Positions 5,916-16,902 of a stretch of 28,116 bases of DNA are shown piece after piece. Every line of letters starts with the position of its first letter. Position 1 is the first letter of the stretch. This DNA comes from a virus, in IMG/VR virus record IMGVR_UViG_3300046804_002589, positions 1 through 28,116 of that record; one strand, written 5' to 3'. The position numbers and the translations under genes were made by a program. The notes under the pieces are model-generated. The model saw nothing but the letters and a program-made list of their open reading frames with translations, made no database searches and had not been told where the DNA came from.

Positions 5916-6355
5916 GTGTCGTTCTAGAACCTGAAGTAAAGTGGACGCCCGACCAAATGGTGGAAGTGATTCTTAACGAACCTGATGACTTTCTAAAGGT
6001 TCGTGAGACTTTGACCCGTATCGGAGTTGCTTCACGCAAGGAAAAGAAAATCTATCAATCTTGCCATATTCTACACAAACAAGGTAGATATTATCTTGTA
6101 CATTTTAAAGAACTGTTTGCTCTTGATGGCAAACATGCCAATCTTACGGTAAATGATGTTCAGCGTCGTAATCGTATTGCTCAGTTGATTGCAGATTGGG
6201 GTCTTGTAGAAATTGTTGATGTTTCTAAGATTTCTGATATTGCACCACTCAATCAAATCAAAGTCCTTGCATATAAAGACAAAGGAGATTGGATTTTAGA
6301 GACCAAGTATAATATTGGTGCTAAGAAAAAACGTACAGAAGAGGAAACCGAATAA
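5912..6355 (+). CDS. regA: RegA translational repressor
   Basis: RegA is a small RNA-binding protein that represses translation of many early T4 genes by binding around their start codons. The match is clear: EPDDFLKVRETLTRIGVASRKEKKIYQSCHIL aligns almost residue for residue with T4 RegA, as do YYLVHFKELF and IAQLIADWGLVEIV. The length is 147 against 122 in T4, the extra being short N- and C-terminal extensions. GGAGG lies about 8 bases before the ATG. It overlaps gp62 (ATGA) and is the last gene before a strong terminator. Likely targets are the SD-poor, UUAUG-type starts of this same cluster, but that is inferred. Confidence 0.95.
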   Translation: MSVVLEPEVKWTPDQMVEVILNEPDDFLKVRETLTRIGVASRKEKKIYQSCHILHKQGRYYLVHFKELFALDGKHANLTVNDVQRRNRIAQLIADWGLVEIVDVSKISDIAPLNQIKVLAYKDKGDWILETKYNIGAKKKRTEEETE

Positions 6356-6388
6356 AAAAGTGGGGAGAACAACACTCCCCATTTTTTA
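6354..6388 (+). terminator. Rho-independent terminator after regA
   Basis: A 7-bp GC-rich stem (TGGGGAG at 6361-6367 with CTCCCCA at 6375-6381), extended by A/T pairs on both sides, is followed by a run of six T. It closes the gp45-regA operon. Confidence 0.85.
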
Positions 6389-6399
6389 TGTTCTGAATA

Positions 6400-6433
6400 T
6401 ATAATAATGATGTTGCCTTCGGGGACATTATTA
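6400..6433 (+). promoter_or_regulatory. hsp20 5' region: TATAAT and inverted repeat with UUCG loop
   Basis: TATAAT at 6400-6405 could be a -10 box, but no -35 of the TTGACA type stands 16-18 bp upstream. From 6402 to 6433 an inverted repeat (TAATAATG with CATTATTA) encloses CC-TTCG-GG, a stable UUCG tetraloop. The hairpin lies about 20 bases before a strong AAGGAGG ribosome site. It may shape or stabilise the hsp20 leader. The overlap with the possible -10 means only one of the two roles may be real. Confidence 0.4.
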
Positions 6434-6461
6434 ACTTACAGACGCTTTAAGGAGGTCTATT

Positions 6462-6929
6462 ATGTTCGGAACAAGTTCGCTTACACTCTCAGTGCCAGAA
6501 ACTGCAAAGTATCTGCTGGAGATTCAGAAAAACAGCATCGGATTGGATGAGTGGTTTAAAAGGTTTGATACTGCGTTTGAGACGCATACCAACTATCCAC
6601 CATACAATCTAGTTAAAGAAAGTAATGTTGATTTCCGATTGGAAATTGCACTTGCTGGATATAAAAGAGAAGATATTGAAGTCACTACGGAATGGAATAA
6701 ACTCTTTGTGGAAGCAAAGAAATCTGGTAGCTCTAATGATGAGTATCTACATCAAGGATTGGCAAAGAGAGCATTCACCCGCACCTGGACTCTTTCTGAT
6801 GATGTAGAAGTTAAGGATGTTTCTTTTGAGGATGGATTACTCACTATTAAACTAAATAGAGTTATTCCAGAACATCAGAAGAAGAAGGTATATGAAATCG
6901 TTTCAGGAGTTCGTTCAGATTCTGAATGA
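6462..6929 (+). CDS. hsp20: Small heat-shock protein Hsp20 (alpha-crystallin family)
   Basis: This 155-residue small chaperone is a common T4-like cyanophage gene. The alpha-crystallin domain runs from about residue 45 to 145: YNLVKESNVDFRLEIALAGYKREDIEV, LFVEAKK, the central FTRTWTLSDDVEVKDVSFEDGLLTIKL, and the terminal VIPEH segment replacing the usual IxI. It would bind unfolding proteins without ATP, perhaps protecting host photosystems or assisting capsid assembly. AAGGAGG stands 7 bases before the ATG, one of the best ribosome sites in the window, suggesting strong expression. It sits between the regA terminator and a 65-aa gene that it overlaps by 38 bases. Confidence 0.92.
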   Translation: MFGTSSLTLSVPETAKYLLEIQKNSIGLDEWFKRFDTAFETHTNYPPYNLVKESNVDFRLEIALAGYKREDIEVTTEWNKLFVEAKKSGSSNDEYLHQGLAKRAFTRTWTLSDDVEVKDVSFEDGLLTIKLNRVIPEHQKKKVYEIVSGVRSDSE

Positions 6930-7089
6930 AAAAATTGGTGATTTTGGTGCGACTGCCAAATATGTGAAACCGAAAGAAAATTGTTATGGTAAAACGGTTG
7001 ATTATAAAATGGCACCAAAAAAGAAAGTTTGTGCTTTGAATACTGATAGTGGTTCTGGCGGCGCCTCTGGTGATTCTGGTGGTGAATAA
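6892..7089 (+). CDS. 65-aa protein with capsid-targeting-like N-terminus
   Basis: This small protein begins MKSFQEFVQILNE. That resembles the capsid-targeting sequence of T4 internal proteins (MKTYQEFIAE), which gp21 protease cuts after a glutamate in an (L/I)xE context; here LNE ends at residue 13. The rest is a basic middle part and a Gly/Ser-rich tail (SGSGGASGDSGGE). The gene overlaps hsp20 by 38 bases and has AAGAAGG in front of its ATG. A role as a packaged internal or scaffold-core protein is inferred from the N-terminus alone. It could instead be an unrelated small protein. Confidence 0.6.
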   Translation: MKSFQEFVQILNEKIGDFGATAKYVKPKENCYGKTVDYKMAPKKKVCALNTDSGSGGASGDSGGE

Positions 7090-7092
7090 ATA
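7085..7092 (+). promoter_or_regulatory. Possible late promoter box AATAAATA
   Basis: AATAAATA matches the NATAAATA late promoter form but overlaps the stop codon of the 65-aa gene, where such a string can arise by chance. A transcript from here would end only about 70 bases later at the terminator at 7121-7165, so it would make a short non-coding RNA or nothing useful. Confidence 0.25.
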
Positions 7093-7120
7093 GAATTGAA
7101 TATCGTCGTCGCTAAGCCAC

Positions 7121-7165
7121 AGGGGAGCAACTGGCAAAATCCAGTTGACGCTCCCCTTCTTTTTT
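7121..7165 (+). terminator. Strong rho-independent terminator after hsp20 unit
   Basis: A two-part stem is followed by TTCTTTTTT. The outer stem is AGGGGAGC (7121-7128) with GCTCCCCT (7150-7157). The inner stem is AACTGG (7129-7134) with CCAGTT (7141-7146), with a 3-base bulge and a CAAAAT loop. The descending arm also contains the -35 box of the next promoter. Confidence 0.85.
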
Positions 7166-7173
7166 GCTATAAT
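7145..7173 (+). promoter_or_regulatory. Sigma70-like extended -10 promoter for Sm-like genes and gp43
   Basis: TTGACG at 7145-7150 and TATAAT at 7168-7173 are 17 bp apart, and TGC directly precedes the -10, giving an extended -10. The -35 lies inside the terminator stem of the previous unit. The first gene start (7196) is about 15 bases after the predicted transcription start. Confidence 0.75.
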
Positions 7174-7195
7174 GTGTGTAGGGAAAATATGAAAA

Positions 7196-7531
7196 ATGTC
7201 AATTAAACTAGCACTATTAAAATCAGGTGAGACAGTTATTTCTGATGCCAAAGAACTGATTTCTGATGATAAAGTTTGTGGATATCTTTTTGATAATCCC
7301 CATAAAATTGAGATTAGGAAATCTATTCTTTTAGTTGAGGAACAAAAAGCATCTGATGGAGCAGATGTTGAGATTTCTTTGTCTCCATGGATTGTTCTGA
7401 CAAGTGACAAACAAATTCCAGTTCCTCCTGATTGGATTGTTACTATCGTAGAACCAATCACAACCATTAAAAAAATGTATGAGGAGAAAGTAAATGTCCA
7501 AAACAGTGAAGTGCCTTCTACTGAAGGTTGA
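7196..7531 (+). CDS. Cyanophage Sm-like protein, copy 1
   Basis: This is a 111-residue, beta-rich protein. The arrangement (IKLALLKSGETVISDAKEL, GYLFDNPHKIEI, a variable charged loop, SPWIVLTSDKQIPVPPDW, IVTIVEP and a C-terminal KKMYEEKV helix) agrees with what I remember of an Sm/LSm-fold family described from cyanophage-like metagenomic sequence. Sm proteins form rings that bind U-rich or A-rich RNA, as Hfq does. The next gene is a diverged paralogue overlapping it by 38 bases. It is the first gene after the 7145-7173 promoter and leads into the DNA polymerase. The Sm assignment is from memory and needs a profile search; RNA binding is inference. Confidence 0.65.
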   Translation: MSIKLALLKSGETVISDAKELISDDKVCGYLFDNPHKIEIRKSILLVEEQKASDGADVEISLSPWIVLTSDKQIPVPPDWIVTIVEPITTIKKMYEEKVNVQNSEVPSTEG

Positions 7532-7748
7532 TAATGTAATTGTTACTGAGATTGAGGAAGTCCCTTCGGAACTCGGTGAACCTGATTGCCGACTTCTTAA
7601 TCCTTATCAAATTAATTCTGATGGGGAACTATTTCCTTGGCCAGAAGTAACTGACCAAAGAGAAATGATGATTCATTCTGATAGTATTCTAACTATTGTA
7701 GATCCTAAACCTGAAATTGTTGAAAAGTATCTTGAACTGACTGCATAA
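7494..7748 (+). CDS. Cyanophage Sm-like protein, copy 2 (paralogue)
   Basis: This 84-residue protein aligns with its upstream neighbour along its length: CLLLKVDNVIVTEIEEV with LALLKSGETVISDAKEL, RLLNPYQI with YLFDNPHKI, FPWPEVTDQ with SPWIVLTSD, and SILTIVDPKPEIVEKYLE with WIVTIVEPITTIKKMYEE. It therefore arose by duplication and divergence and is shortened in the central loop. GAGGAG is about 8 bases upstream of the ATG. Its stop overlaps the gp43 start by one base (TAATG), so its translation is coupled to the polymerase. If both copies keep the Sm fold they could form mixed rings. Confidence 0.65.
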   Translation: MSKTVKCLLLKVDNVIVTEIEEVPSELGEPDCRLLNPYQINSDGELFPWPEVTDQREMMIHSDSILTIVDPKPEIVEKYLELTA

Positions 7749-10249
7749 TGCGCTTTTATACAAACGTCCAAATGGTCGGGGATCACTTCTTGGTCCGTGG
7801 TTATGAAAATGGTAAACATTTCATGACTCGTGAGAAGTTTTACCCGACTCTTTTTGTCCCTTCAAAAAAGAATACCGAATACAAAACTCTGAATGGCGAA
7901 TCTGTTGAACCAATTCAACCAGGAACTGTAAGAGAGTGTAGGGAATTTATTAAAAAATATAATGATGTTCAGGGATTTTCAATTCATGGAAATGACCGAT
8001 ACATCTATCAATACATTTCTGAAACTTATCCTGAAGATGAAGTTAAGTTTGACATTAATAAAATCAAAGTAACTACAATTGACATTGAGGTTGCATCAGA
8101 GAATGGATTCCCTGATGTAGAAAGTGCTGCCGAAGAAGTGTTGCTTATCACGATTCAGGATTATAATACGAAGCAGATTCGTACTTGGGGTCTTGGTAAG
8201 TTTAATAATCAGCAGAGTAATGTAAAATATCGTTCTTTTACTAACGAGCACGATTTGTTAAATGACTTTATCAATTGGTGGATGATTGAGGAGAATACTC
8301 CAGAAGTCATTACTGGTTGGAATAGTGAACTATATGATATTCCATATTTGGTTCGTCGTATCGATCGTGTTCTTGGTGAAAAACTGATGAAGCGCATGTC
8401 TCCATGGGGACTAGTGACTGAAAGTGAAACATTTATCTCTGGGCGTAAGCATATTTGCTATGATATTGGTGGAATCAGTCAACTTGACTATCTGAATCTT
8501 TATAAGAAATTTACTTATAAGGCACAGGAATCTTATCGCCTTGACCATATTGCCAATGTTGAACTTGGGTCAAAAAAACTAGACCACTCTGAGTTTGATA
8601 CTTTCAAAGATTTCTATACCAAAGGATGGCAGAAGTTTGTAGAATATAACATCATTGACGTGGAACTTGTTGACCGATTGGAAGACAAGATGAAACTAAT
8701 TGAACTTGCTTTGACTATGGCATATGATGCTAAGGCAAACTATGCTGATGTATTTTCTCAAGTTCGGATGTGGGATACGATTATCTACAACTATCTGAAA
8801 AAAAGGAATATTGTGATTCCTCCAAATGTGAGGTCTGATAAGGATTCAAAGTATGCTGGTGCTTATGTAAAAGAACCGATTCCTGGTGTTTATGATTGGG
8901 TAGTGAACTTTGACCTTAACAGTCTATATCCGCATCTGATTATGCAATACAATATTTCACCAGAAACACTTTTGGAAGAGAGGCACCCTTCTGTAACTGT
9001 AGATAAAATTCTTAATCAAGAAATCAATTTTGAAATGTATAAGGATTATGCAGTTTGTGCAAATGGTGCAATGTATCGTAAAGATGTTCGCGGATTTCTT
9101 CCAGAATTGATGGAAAAGATTTACGAAGATCGTACCGTCTACAAGAAGAAGATGCTTGCCGCAAAACAAGAATATGAGAAGAAAAAGACAAAAGAACTGG
9201 AAAAGGAAATTGCAAGGTGTAACAACATTCAAATGGCAAGGAAGATTCAACTTAATAGTGCTTATGGTGCTATTGGCAATCAGTACTTCCGTTATTTTAA
9301 ACTAGCAAATGCTGAGGCAATTACTCTTTCTGGTCAAGTTTCAATTCGTTGGATTGAAGATAAAATTAACAAGTACCTAAACAAAATTCTTAAGACAAAT
9401 GATGTTGACTATGTTATTGCTTCGGATACTGATTCTATCTACCTTAATATGGGTCCTTTGGTTGAAACTGTATACAAGGGAAGAGAGAAAACTACTGAAG
9501 GCGTTGTTTCGTTCCTTGATAAGGTCGCTAAGGTGGAACTTGAAAAACATATTGAAAGTTGCTACCAAGAACTGGCGGACTATGTAAATGCCTATGACCA
9601 GAAGATGCAGATGAAGCGGGAGAATATTGCCGATCGTGGAATCTGGACTGCTAAGAAGCGATACATTCTAAATGTTTGGGATAGTGAGGGTGTTCGTTAC
9701 GAAGAACCCAAACTCAAAATGATGGGTATTGAGGCAGTTAAATCTTCCACTCCAGCACCTTGTCGTCAGATGATTAAGGATGGTCTGAAACTGATGATGA
9801 GTGGAACTGAAGAGCAGGTAATTGAGTTTATTGATAAGTGTCGTTCTGAATTCAAAAAACTTCCTCCAGAACAGATTGCATTCCCAAGAACTGCTTCTGA
9901 TGTTCGGAAATATTATTCTTCATCAAACATTTATGCTCCCAAAACTCCAATTCATATTCGTGGAGCACTTCTTTTCAATTATTATATTAAGAATAAAAAT
10001 CTTACTAATAAGTATTCTCTCATTGGTAATGGAGAGAAAGTCAAGTTTATTTTCTTGAAAAAACCAAACATTATTCAAGAGAATGTGATTTCTTTTATTC
10101 AAGATTTCCCTAAGGAACTTGGTCTTGACAAATACATAGACTATGACTTACAATTTGAAAAGAGTTTTGTAGACCCACTTAAATCAATCTTAGATGCAAT
10201 TGGGTGGAATGTGGAAAAAACTGTAAACCTTGAATTATTTTTTGCCTAA
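7748..10249 (+). CDS. 43: DNA polymerase gp43 (family B)
   Basis: This is the replicative T4-type polymerase with proofreading exonuclease, 833 residues against 898 in T4. Exo I is TIDIEVASENG with D112 and E114 at the same numbers as in T4. Exo II is around WNSELYDIP (D197) and Exo III around YNIIDVELVD. Polymerase motif A is FDLNSLYPHLI, motif B KIQLNSAYGAIGN and motif C IASDTDSIYL. The C-terminal tail ends in LELFFA, a plausible gp45-binding peptide. The start overlaps the preceding stop by one base. A sigma70-like promoter lies in its last 130 bases. All catalytic residues I can check are present and there is no intein or split. Confidence 0.98.
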   Translation: MRFYTNVQMVGDHFLVRGYENGKHFMTREKFYPTLFVPSKKNTEYKTLNGESVEPIQPGTVRECREFIKKYNDVQGFSIHGNDRYIYQYISETYPEDEVKFDINKIKVTTIDIEVASENGFPDVESAAEEVLLITIQDYNTKQIRTWGLGKFNNQQSNVKYRSFTNEHDLLNDFINWWMIEENTPEVITGWNSELYDIPYLVRRIDRVLGEKLMKRMSPWGLVTESETFISGRKHICYDIGGISQLDYLNLYKKFTYKAQESYRLDHIANVELGSKKLDHSEFDTFKDFYTKGWQKFVEYNIIDVELVDRLEDKMKLIELALTMAYDAKANYADVFSQVRMWDTIIYNYLKKRNIVIPPNVRSDKDSKYAGAYVKEPIPGVYDWVVNFDLNSLYPHLIMQYNISPETLLEERHPSVTVDKILNQEINFEMYKDYAVCANGAMYRKDVRGFLPELMEKIYEDRTVYKKKMLAAKQEYEKKKTKELEKEIARCNNIQMARKIQLNSAYGAIGNQYFRYFKLANAEAITLSGQVSIRWIEDKINKYLNKILKTNDVDYVIASDTDSIYLNMGPLVETVYKGREKTTEGVVSFLDKVAKVELEKHIESCYQELADYVNAYDQKMQMKRENIADRGIWTAKKRYILNVWDSEGVRYEEPKLKMMGIEAVKSSTPAPCRQMIKDGLKLMMSGTEEQVIEFIDKCRSEFKKLPPEQIAFPRTASDVRKYYSSSNIYAPKTPIHIRGALLFNYYIKNKNLTNKYSLIGNGEKVKFIFLKKPNIIQENVISFIQDFPKELGLDKYIDYDLQFEKSFVDPLKSILDAIGWNVEKTVNLELFFA
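10125..10154 (+). promoter_or_regulatory. Sigma70-like promoter upstream of uvsX cluster
   Basis: TTGACA at 10125-10130 and TACAAT at 10149-10154 are 18 bp apart. It is inside the 3' end of gp43, about 90 bases before the first small ORF and about 390 before uvsX. It is a weaker match than the others because of the spacer and the -10. Confidence 0.45.
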
Positions 10250-14198: not shown

Positions 14199-15332
14199 AT
14201 GGCGGAAAAAATATCAGCAAATAGGGGTGACTTATTCGAAGTATTTTTTGCTGCTGCAGTTGCTGCCAGATTTGTAAAAAGAGCAAAAACTAAATCTGCC
14301 AAGATTTTACCCACAGTCAGTGGATCTGATGTTGATATTGTATTGACTGAGATGATGAAAGGTGGTTACATTAAAAATGTCAATGATGTTGGTAGTGCTG
14401 TAATTGATACTGTTTCTGTCTCAGTATCTGTTCCAAAAAAAGCACAAGATTTTTTATCTAACAGAGTAAATTGGGTTAAAGTTTCTGATTTAAGAAATGG
14501 TGCTATAGCATTTGTAAATTCTCATAGTAGACTTAATGCCCAAGCAAGAGGATTATCAATTAACGCTAGACAAGATATTATTAGAGTAACTGCAGCAGGA
14601 ACTGAAGATCAAAAAGGCACAAAAGCTGATGTTAAGATTGAAGTAAATTCACCAACAAATCCTGATAAAAAATTTAGAAATATTGATTATTCCCTTAAGG
14701 TTGAAGGTGGAGAGCAATTTCACCAAGTTTCTGGACAAGGATTTGATAAATTTTTAAATATTTTTGGAGAAATGGGATTAGATGTTTCTCCAATTGCTGA
14801 CAAGTATCAAAATTTTATTGATGAATTCTTTGATAAAGAAATATTTACTAAAAAATATACCTCTAGAGATGATGCGAAGGCAACTGGGGGTGGCGAATAT
14901 CTTAAGAAAGCAGCAAGACTTGTTTATACTTATGCTACACAAAAGTTAAATGAAGGATTGGACACTGTAGATAAGACTGGCACCAAAGTAAAATTTGCTG
15001 ATTATATTATTTACGGTCTTTCTAGAGATATTAATACTGAACTTGTAAAATTTACAGGAAATGGTAAAGTTAAAACCAGATTAGCAAATAGGGAATTTAG
15101 AGATATTCTTGCGAATAGTAGATTTAATGCTAGAATTAATGCCTCTGGGGATCCAAAAATTGAAATTTATAAGTCAAATTCAGACGGTTCAAAACTAAGT
15201 GGAAATACCAATTTGATTATTCAAATTCGTTATAAGATGGAAGTGGCAAGTTCAACCACTGCTTCGGGAAAATCTTATAGATTTTATCCAAGAAATTATT
15301 TGGAAGCTCAACCTGGAATGTTTCTAATATGA
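14199..15332 (+). CDS. Unknown late protein with PD-(D/E)XK-like core
   Basis: This is a 377-residue protein. An N-terminal helix with GDLFEVFFAAAVAARF (E14) precedes residues 143-167, where ADVKIEV (D144) is followed by a strand ending NIDYSLK (K167), then GGEQFHQVSGQGFDKF. The order helix-E, strand-D, strand-xK and a polar QxSGQ helix is what PD-(D/E)XK nucleases look like, with SLK replacing ExK. I recognise no named family, so this is a fold guess. The remaining part, with KLNEGLDTVDKT and a C-terminal YRFYPRNYLEAQPGMFLI, is unassigned. It is the first gene after the 14174 late promoter and overlaps the next ORF by four bases. A virion structural role is the main alternative. Confidence 0.65.
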   Translation: MAEKISANRGDLFEVFFAAAVAARFVKRAKTKSAKILPTVSGSDVDIVLTEMMKGGYIKNVNDVGSAVIDTVSVSVSVPKKAQDFLSNRVNWVKVSDLRNGAIAFVNSHSRLNAQARGLSINARQDIIRVTAAGTEDQKGTKADVKIEVNSPTNPDKKFRNIDYSLKVEGGEQFHQVSGQGFDKFLNIFGEMGLDVSPIADKYQNFIDEFFDKEIFTKKYTSRDDAKATGGGEYLKKAARLVYTYATQKLNEGLDTVDKTGTKVKFADYIIYGLSRDINTELVKFTGNGKVKTRLANREFRDILANSRFNARINASGDPKIEIYKSNSDGSKLSGNTNLIIQIRYKMEVASSTTASGKSYRFYPRNYLEAQPGMFLI

Positions 15333-15576: not shown

Positions 15577-16902
15577 ATGAAAAGTTTTTTCCAATTTATT
15601 TCAGAAACAACTGCATCTCAGCAAGCTCAACGTCTTGGTCTTGTTGGTGATGGTCATGGTGGTTGGTATGATAAGCAGGGAGAGTTTGTAGCAAAAACGG
15701 AACTTGGTAAACTTAAGTTTTTTAATAAGCGTCAAAGAGTAGGAGCAAAAGACCCAAAACAAACTGAAAAGGAAAAGACGATTGCTTCACCAGGATATAA
15801 TGATCCTGCATTAATGCAACAACAAGCGGCACAACAGCAAGTTCAACAACAACCAGCACCAGAGCAACAACCTGCTGCACAGCAACCAGTTGCACAAGAA
15901 CCACAGCAACAGGTCGGACCTCCTCCAGTTCCCAAAACAAAAGGAACTCTCACAATTGCCTTTGGTCGTTTCAATCCTCCTACGATTGGGCATCAACAAT
16001 TGATGGATGTTGCTGCTCAATCTGCACAAGCAGATGGTGGAGATTACTTAATCTATCCTTCTAGAAGTCAGGATAAGAAGAAAAATCCTTTAGATGCAGA
16101 TACGAAAGTTTCTTATATGAGAAGGATGTTCCCTGCTCATAGTGAGAGAATTGTAAATGACGCAAACAGCAAAACAATTTTTGATGTTCTTAAAAAAGCA
16201 CACAATGATGGATATGCGAATGTCAGAATTGTTGGTGGATCTGATAGAGTTAAAGAGTTTGAAAAACTATCAGGTAATTATAATGGGCAACTTTATCAAT
16301 TTGATAATATTGAAGTAGTCTCTGCTGGAGATAGAGACCCCGATGCAAAAGGTGTTGAAGGAATGTCTGCTTCAAGAATGAGGCTTGCTGCTGCAGAAGG
16401 AGATTTCCGTAAGTTTAGAGAAGGTCTTCCTCCTGATATGAAGCGTAAGGATGCATTAGAACTTTTTGATACGGTTCGTGCTTCCATGAACATTAAAGAA
16501 GGATGGGATATTTGGGAGATTGCTCCTAAGTTTGATTTTAGAACTTTAAGAGAAAATTATTTAACCGAATCTATTTTTAGAATTGGGGAAATTGTTGAGA
16601 ATTTAAATACTGGGTTGGTCGGTCGTATTATTCGTAGAGGAACAAATTATCTGATTTGTGTTACAGAATCTGGTATAATGTTCAAATCTTGGATTAAAGA
16701 TTTATCTGAATATACTGAAGTTAAAGTTGATGGAATAATGAGAGATAAAATGCATCCAAATACTTTAGTTGGAACTCTTGGTGCATTTAAAAATTATGCA
16801 AATAAAACTCCTGGAGCAATTGGAACTGGAAAAGAGAATTTGCAAGCAGGAGGAAAACCATATGATATTCGTTATTTCATAAATAAATATAGAAAAAAGT
16901 AA
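15577..16902 (+). CDS. Nucleotidyltransferase with capsid-targeting-like N-terminus
   Basis: This is a 441-residue multidomain protein. Residues 1-12 (MKSFFQFISETT) resemble the capsid-targeting peptide of T4 internal proteins, with an ISE cleavage-like site at 8-10. Residues 25-50 hold a DGHGGWYDKQGEFVAK module. A Gln/Pro/Ala-rich linker spans about 80-120. Residues 123-305 are an HxGH-class nucleotidyltransferase: TIAFGRFNPPTIGH (126-139) is the adenylyl/cytidylyl-transfer motif, VRIVGGSDR (216-224) the second motif, and VEGMSASRMR (260-269) the ISxTxxR-like motif. A C-terminal module (335-375, GLVGRIIRRGTNYLICVTE) looks SH3/KOW-like. NMN adenylyltransferase-type chemistry is possible, but the substrate is unknown. 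It is co-transcribed with late genes. Confidence 0.8.
   Translation: MKSFFQFISETTASQQAQRLGLVGDGHGGWYDKQGEFVAKTELGKLKFFNKRQRVGAKDPKQTEKEKTIASPGYNDPALMQQQAAQQQVQQQPAPEQQPAAQQPVAQEPQQQVGPPPVPKTKGTLTIAFGRFNPPTIGHQQLMDVAAQSAQADGGDYLIYPSRSQDKKKNPLDADTKVSYMRRMFPAHSERIVNDANSKTIFDVLKKAHNDGYANVRIVGGSDRVKEFEKLSGNYNGQLYQFDNIEVVSAGDRDPDAKGVEGMSASRMRLAAAEGDFRKFREGLPPDMKRKDALELFDTVRASMNIKEGWDIWEIAPKFDFRTLRENYLTESIFRIGEIVENLNTGLVGRIIRRGTNYLICVTESGIMFKSWIKDLSEYTEVKVDGIMRDKMHPNTLVGTLGAFKNYANKTPGAIGTGKENLQAGGKPYDIRYFINKYRKK
16878..16889 (+). promoter_or_regulatory. Late promoter CATAAATAAATA
   Basis: Two overlapping late boxes, CATAAATA (16878-16885) and AATAAATA (16882-16889), lie about 28 bases before the ATG at 16917, inside the end of the previous gene. 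The correct spacing to the next structural gene supports a functional late promoter. Confidence 0.55.

Follow-up and report, generated by a model that had tools for sequence, protein, structure and literature searches.

The window analyzed in this work is a virus record of 28,116 bases carrying T4-type genes (e.g., regA and hsp20), and its source is a virus related to cyanobacterial viruses. On the plus strand, the hsp20 gene (6462-6929; PHROG 432, E = 3.2e-53; Pfam HSP20, E = 1.8e-14) is followed by a small gene, P0001 (6892-7089, plus strand), encoding a protein of 65 aa (MKSFQEFVQILNEKIGDFGATAKYVKPKENCYGKTVDYKMAPKKKVCALNTDSGSGGASGDSGGE) and overlapping hsp20, as given in the preliminary description; the overlap measures 38 nt and is in a different frame. 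Three parts of its product are considered below, i.e., a capsid-targeting-like leader MKSFQEFVQILNE (residues 1-13, 6892-6930, plus strand) with L-x-E at residues 11-13, a conserved core C31-x15-C47 (CYGKTVDYKMAPKKKVC; 6982-7032, plus strand) defined by the family alignment, and a C-terminal tail NTDSGSGGASGDSGGE (7039-7086, plus strand), which proved exchangeable when tails were tabulated across the family. A late-promoter-like CTAAATA (6852-6858, plus strand) lies inside hsp20, where it forms the codons CTA AAT, 33 nt 5' of the ATG of the small gene. On the 3' side of P0001 we found an intrinsic terminator (7121-7165, plus strand; -22 kcal/mol, z = -3.8), consisting of a hairpin (7121-7157) and a T-rich run and missed by the pattern scan, and then a sigma-70-like promoter TTGACG-17-TATAAT (7145-7173, plus strand) preceding the genes for DUF6561 and gp43, with 11 of 12 matching positions in a region where nine promoter-like sites were found against 4.4 expected.

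Among 50,697 phage records, the only match to P0001 was S-SRM01 (two records of one phage; 61% identity), which comes from a freshwater reservoir and is also the phage record closest to the stretch 6300-7800. Two scans of viral contigs yielded relatives at 48 and 61 loci, respectively, with some loci in common, and those in IMG/VR contigs were 43-94% identical to P0001. The family set comprised 85 extracted sequences (the window and S-SRM01 included), 57 of them distinct, one of which (L167) is cut by the contig end. The single cellular match was to a 49,349-bp MAG contig; the IMG/VR contig 2778260978_000004 has the same size, so the former is probably a viral contig in the bin. No Pfam domain was found in P0001 by profile search, and the family profile had no match in PDB up to E = 1. 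A match of P0001 to PHROG 4890 (E = 0.047) was distrusted. The profiles named "internal virion protein" gave weak signals, given the 43 scans: phrog_8765 was matched by three of the 43 members, with E no better than 0.002, and phrog_7857 by residues 1-15 of one member, L137 (E = 0.24); these values (0.002-0.24) are too weak for membership.

The median pairwise dN/dS over the whole family was 0.31, and by part it was 0.14 for residues 1-7, 0.27 for the core and 0.51 for the linker (medians of pairs that are not independent, residues 1-12 doubling as hsp20 coding sequence in the overlapping loci), the leader and the two-cysteine core being under the strongest purifying selection. The tail value of 1.40 is meaningless because unlike tails were aligned. 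With 57 distinct relatives, fixed synteny and a dN/dS of 0.31, the frame 6892-7089 is almost certainly a real gene. A chance reading frame at the hsp20 3' end, which its shortness and the overlap might bring to mind, has a practically negligible probability: it is at odds with 57 distinct homologous proteins under such selection, with 46 loci that lack the overlap and with a late-type element and terminator of its own, and the family alignment rules it out. It should be stressed that the public annotation of S-SRM01 places the start of this CDS (157627-157785; L049:20022-20180) at an inner Met, while the leader-bearing frame starts at 157606 and encodes 59 aa; the leader is thereby removed, and annotation thus hides such genes.

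The position of the gene is invariable. Of the 84 placed loci, hsp20 lies directly 5' of the small gene in all 83 that have room for it, gp43 or DUF6561 neighbors follow 3' in 79/79, and the spacing to hsp20 is an overlap (38 loci) or at most 31 nt in every one of the 84, the two genes being separated in 46. The gene sits amid replication genes, which counts against packaging. The close association with hsp20, together with the place between hsp20 and gp43, would favor an unpackaged protein that partners or regulates Hsp20 or the replication genes in the cytoplasm and has only an incidental leader likeness. We regard such a role as improbable: in the 46 of 84 loci without the overlap, the leader is still kept, and further points against it emerge from the promoter and virion comparisons below.

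The leader feature of T4-type internal proteins, an aromatic residue at position 4 and F at position 7, was found in 57/57 and 56/57 distinct members, respectively (residue 4: F in 55, Y in 2; residue 7: F in 56, L in 1), and the F4/Y4 exchange resembles that between T4 IPI and IPII/III. In T4 IPIII, residues 4 and 7 weigh most in targeting, and 8 and 10 in processing (PMC9026906, available text). Retention of the leader merely due to the hsp20 overlap was rejected, for it is kept in 26/26 distinct proteins without the overlap, as well as in 29/30 with it.

The head protease gp21 cuts after L/I-x-E, according to the same text (PMC9026906). Within their first 18 residues, 32 of the 57 members have such a motif (8.4 in shuffles), and 56 have [LIF]-x-E (38.3 in shuffles). 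Two observations count against processing here: 25/57 members have no L/I-x-E in this stretch, mostly showing F-M-E there, and the residue after the E of the putative site is K or M in most members. In PDB 2JUB, the solved mature form of T4 IPI starts with residue 20, directly behind ITE (the query lacking Met1), so a displaced site is usable. The proposal that LNE fits the gp21 site is less certain than the one on targeting: LNE occupies residues 11-13 of the window protein, and L/I-x-E is seen in 32/57 members of the family. It was also claimed that this leader is a better match than that of the nucleotidyltransferase, i.e., the cytidylyltransferase/NMNAT-like protein of the same window (15577-16902, plus strand; leader MKSFFQFISE; PHROG 395, E = 1.9e-103), homologs of which were reported in virions. 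This holds for residues 5-6 (QE) and fails for the processing geometry, to which the cytidylyltransferase, with I-x-E at 8-10 like T4 IPII/IPIII, is better suited. A gp21-type protease is present in the relative S-SRM01 (135233-135883; L066:15233-15883; Peptidase_S77, E = 7.9e-37), where it carries the annotation "primosomal protein".

In the alignments A2 and A3, the invariant columns were M1, C31, Y38 and C47, and at least 90% conservation was seen for F4, F7, E13, G16-G19 (GDFG) and Y32. The linker varies in length among the relatives, and the core follows C-x14-18-C, with x15 in 37/56 members. The tails are of several types (NTDSGSGGASGDSGGE-like, KRSSSSAGGD-like, FKRKR and FKRKRE). In the DNA surveyed, neither SGDSGG nor KRKR tails were found in proteins outside the family, apart from unrelated ends in DTGG, and the idea of the tail as a module common to other proteins was rejected for want of a non-family carrier there. 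The part after LNE13 has 52 aa, including 9 Lys, 9 Gly and 4 Ser, with a pI of 8.98 and a net charge of about +2.7 at pH 7. Of the earlier wording "basic and Gly/Ser-rich" for this mature part, "basic" is borne out by the pI, while Gly/Ser richness is confined to the last approximately 15 residues, which are swapped for KRKR(E) in many relatives. The AlphaFold model of P0001 is poor (mean pLDDT 57.8), with a helix at 4-14 and strands at 35-37 and 45-47 at low confidence. The invariant cysteines and the basic charge would be compatible with a folded inhibitor as well as with a peptide bound to DNA.

The element CTAAATA differs by one base from the late promoter of S-PM2, NATAAATA (PMC2984593, available text), which counts against its reading as a late promoter. 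In S-SRM01, the forward/reverse counts are 91/7 for ATAAATA, 21/7 for CTAAATA and 33/29 for GTAAATA. Forty genes of this phage were examined, with T4 gene names assigned from annotation and order, and [AC]TAAATA was present within 70 nt 5' of gp17, gp20, gp22 and seven of nine leader genes, as well as of an endonuclease gene and uvsW, the latter counting against the late-element reading. The same holds for its absence within this distance at gp18, gp19, gp21 and gp23; it was likewise absent at hsp20, gp41, gp43, gp44, gp45, gp46, regA, uvsX, gp55 and nrdA.

Across the family, [CT]TAAATA was found in 55 of 58 distinct 80-nt stretches 5' of the genes, and ATAAATA in one more. Its position was compared in all 84 placed loci, which were chosen by hsp20 alone and are partly redundant. 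In the overlapping loci the element lies inside hsp20 in 36/38 (codons CTA AAT, with TTA AGA instead in the two exceptions, L032 and L040), and in the separated ones it is inside hsp20 in 0/46, while [ACT]TAAATA stands within 30 nt of the ATG in 45/46, often spanning the hsp20 stop. No late-type element was found at L032/L040 and L153. An earlier count of 28/28 was partly due to selection, as those 28 loci had been picked for CTAAATA 33 nt 5'. The in-hsp20 element doubles as hsp20 coding sequence, which counts against it; at three other conserved Leu codons of the 28 overlap loci, the commonest codon was found in just 46-70%. Judged from these sequences, the late-type element relocates with the small gene according to the architecture. 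This is hard to reconcile with the cytoplasmic partner considered above, and so is the finding that in neither S-SRM01 nor the window does hsp20 itself have a late-type element within 70 nt, whereas the small gene does. With such an element 5', a hairpin 3' and then the sigma-70-like promoter of the gp43 region, the small gene has the appearance of a separate late unit amid replication genes. The late-promoter-like CTAAATA inside hsp20 (6852-6858) appears to be new here. Elsewhere in the window, a gene for a 377-aa protein (14199-15332; phrog_33928) has CTAAATA 18 nt 5', precedes the leader-bearing cytidylyltransferase and is likely a late gene.

The leader class is not restricted to the P0001 family. 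In S-SRM01, MK[STN]Fx[EQ]F stands at nine ORF starts (47292, 81722, 82315, 83142, 126582, 138614, 157606, 165428 and 176324), one of these carriers being located directly 3' of gp23. Without their first 12 residues, the nine fall into eight kinds, only the pair 82315/83142 being related (blastp, 28% over 218 aa, E = 1.6e-10) and the remaining pairs having E above 0.7. When expected counts were taken from the motif rate after residues other than Met, K[STN][FY]x[EQ]F after Met was found 9 times vs 0.02 expected in S-SRM01, 4 vs 0.05 in T4, 2 vs 0.06 in P-SSM2 and 2 vs 0.06 in S-SCSM1. The strict pattern picked ipI, ipII, ipIII and 61.1 in the T4 control. It was not found after Met in Syn9 and S-CREM2, where the leaders differ in letters (MKKFSAFLSE, MKNFSSFLTE), and a second form, [KR]x[FYL]xxF[LIMVF]xE, was over-represented after Met in each of the six genomes (counts of 1-4 vs 0.00-0.09). 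The loose M[KR]x[FY]xxF exceeded expectation modestly (11 vs 2.7 in S-SRM01, 8 vs 2.7 in T4, 4 vs 1.9 in P-SSM2, 4 vs 1.5 in Syn9 and 3 vs 0.6 in S-CREM2) and showed no enrichment in S-SCSM1 (2 vs 2.3). The enrichment check that had been set for such leaders thus came out positive in S-SRM01, with nine ORFs, 7/9 of them behind [AC]TAAATA, and negative for the loose motif in S-SCSM1 and for the strict one in Syn9 and S-CREM2.

Some of these carriers deserve separate mention. The S-SRM01 frame 47292-47495 (L062:7292-7495) encodes 67 aa, in which the leader MKSFQEFLFEE precedes a Pfam HIPIP domain (high-potential iron-sulfur protein; 23.7 bits, cut-off 22), and its product is possibly an electron carrier that is packaged. 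Further carriers, about 102-106 aa long, similar to one another and starting with MK[ST]FK[QS]F, are encoded close to terminase or sheath genes by S-SRM01 (L066:6582-6890, phrog_1742), S-SCSM1 (L102:44215-44535) and S-SZBM1 (L176:2812-3129), and are absent from the S-SCSM1 and S-SZBM1 virion lists.

One link of the leader to virions comes from S-CREM2, for which 52 proteins were detected by mass spectrometry (PMC10665884, available text). The proteins on that list include ones starting with MKDFDSFLEE (SAM hydrolase), VKRFDAFLTE (kinase), MKNFSSFLTE (cytidylyltransferase), MKDLHSFLTE (ORF13), MQTFSMFFSE (ORF136) and MNFSEFNES (ORF15), and a Cas9-annotated one with RFASFMAE at approximately residues 18-25, while no leader-type start was seen by eye among the 24 listed there as structural. 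Scanning the S-CREM2 genome for ATG/GTG-x{1,2}-[FYL]xxFxxE gave seven frames of at least 50 aa, five of them in the virion list (a 5/5 pattern that is partly post hoc, having been widened after the list was known) and the other two antisense to ORFs 137 and 203. Given 52 of 221 features listed, the chance of four of four being listed is 0.0028. The pattern fixed beforehand, MKxFxxF, picked two genes, both virion-listed, and a place (42092) without a frame of at least 50 aa. It is also worth mentioning that a DGHG stretch (SDGHG..D) occurs in the virion-detected Cas9-annotated protein and kinase of S-CREM2 (10313 and 12846, both on the minus strand; L107), and also follows the leader in the cytidylyltransferases of S-SRM01, P-SSM2 and the window; it is a possible second packaging module.

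All four virion-detected cytidylyltransferases that were checked, as far as the available sources list them, carry the leader: MKNFSSFLTE in S-CREM2, MKSFLQFLKE in S-SCSM1, MKKFSAFLNE in S-SM1 (T4-GC190; PMC3037559 and record label) and the one residue shorter MRFRQFIIE in S-SZBM1. In S-SCSM1, one of two leader-bearing genes is in the virion list, which was used with 48 entries taken from record labels (that of gp012 says just "virion structural protein"), 45 being given in the available text of PMC9602691. The leader-bearing S-SCSM1 gp030 and SSZBM1_191 (about 105 aa) are absent from the virion lists, which counts against the packaging reading. No virion proteome was found for S-SRM01, the sole phage-record match. 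The presence of this leader class on virion proteins is a further argument against the cytoplasmic partner.

Since the gene is real and begins with a T4-type head-loading tag, its packing into the particle is probable, and we propose that it encodes a small capsid-packaged internal protein using a T4-type capsid-targeting leader. The preliminary description was largely right on targeting, and its interpretation overall is partly supported. In the proposed sequence of events, late transcription from CTAAATA would yield the protein, the N-terminal helix (approximately residues 4-14) would dock on the prohead core, and gp21 would remove the leader, most likely after LNE13; about 50 residues, i.e., the basic two-cysteine core and the flexible tail, would then be retained in the head alongside the DNA. 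Docking, cleavage, retention and ejection are modeled on T4. More speculatively, the mature peptide may enter the next host with the DNA and act there in the manner of T4 internal proteins, or it may bind the packaged DNA. A rival reading is a head-assembly helper that the leader directs into the prohead core, where it would act together with Hsp20 as one of the minor core or scaffold components and afterwards be degraded or left behind, without any effector role. The invariable place 3' of hsp20 would suit such a helper, and T4 core proteins are likewise taken up and cut (PMC9026906, available text). It is nevertheless unlikely, as a conserved two-cysteine core is unexpected for a merely degraded peptide, and P0001 has no homolog in other phage records though many of them match hsp20 DNA, which argues against a general assembly factor.

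Within the packaged-protein reading, a role of the 65-aa protein as a delivered effector is possible, though our analysis leaves it short of probable. A joint and broader reading, which we hold nearly as plausible as its opposite, is that the T4 leader serves as a general cargo code in Kyanoviridae cyanophages and that P0001, with its 65 aa, acts as a peptide effector delivered in this way. One swappable N-terminal tag of about 10 residues would then put unlike passengers into the head for the next cell, among them enzymes of the cytidylyltransferase/NMNAT-like type, a SAM hydrolase, a kinase and a nuclease annotated as Cas9, perhaps also an iron-sulfur protein, and peptides such as P0001; in the 65-aa effector, the cysteine core would be the active part and the tail would be exchanged between lineages. 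Such a code, if true, would explain the packaged enzymes of cyanophages. Virion proteomics of these phages has repeatedly found enzymes without a known loading route, and whether they are carried or left over was left undecided by the authors in the available texts (PMC9602691, PMC10665884). A recognizable leader would make the packaging of enzymes testable and the cargo predictable from sequence, and the ip genes of T-even phages have already been predicted from leader sequence (PMC12373910, available text). In the portions of the open-access literature covered, no prior report of such leaders in cyanophages was found, and the four leader peptides searched as text were also unmatched, so a report in print elsewhere is possible. 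The kind of leader, T4-type capsid-targeting, is known already; P0001 as its candidate carrier would be new.

Among known systems, the closest are the T4 internal proteins IPI, IPII and IPIII, which resemble the P0001 family in having an MK[ST][FY]x[EQ]F leader with L-x-E behind it, bodies of small size, and unrelated bodies behind one leader. They differ in that no similarity of the mature parts was found, the small gene lies beside hsp20, the L-x-E of the family has moved to 11-13 or is replaced by F-x-E, and virion presence and injection are putative for the family. The searches for mature-part homology to a known internal protein (Pfam for P0001, PDB for the family profile) were negative; such homology is not defining, because T4 Ip1-3, which inhibit distinct type IV restriction enzymes, have in common just this leader type (PMC12373910, available text). 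Injection into the host and anti-restriction were reported for them in the same text. The T4 gp61.1 protein (54 aa, hypothetical; L072:18966-19130) shares the start MKTFKEFIKE, a GDSGG segment and an end rich in Lys, but belongs to phrog_1823, and profile searches gave no homology to P0001; by its leader, gp61.1 may itself be an unrecognised T4 head protein. The cytidylyltransferase/NMNAT-like proteins of cyanomyoviruses differ from P0001 in having a full enzyme domain instead of a peptide of about 50 residues, and they share with it the same leader class, with one of them encoded in the same window and several found in virions.
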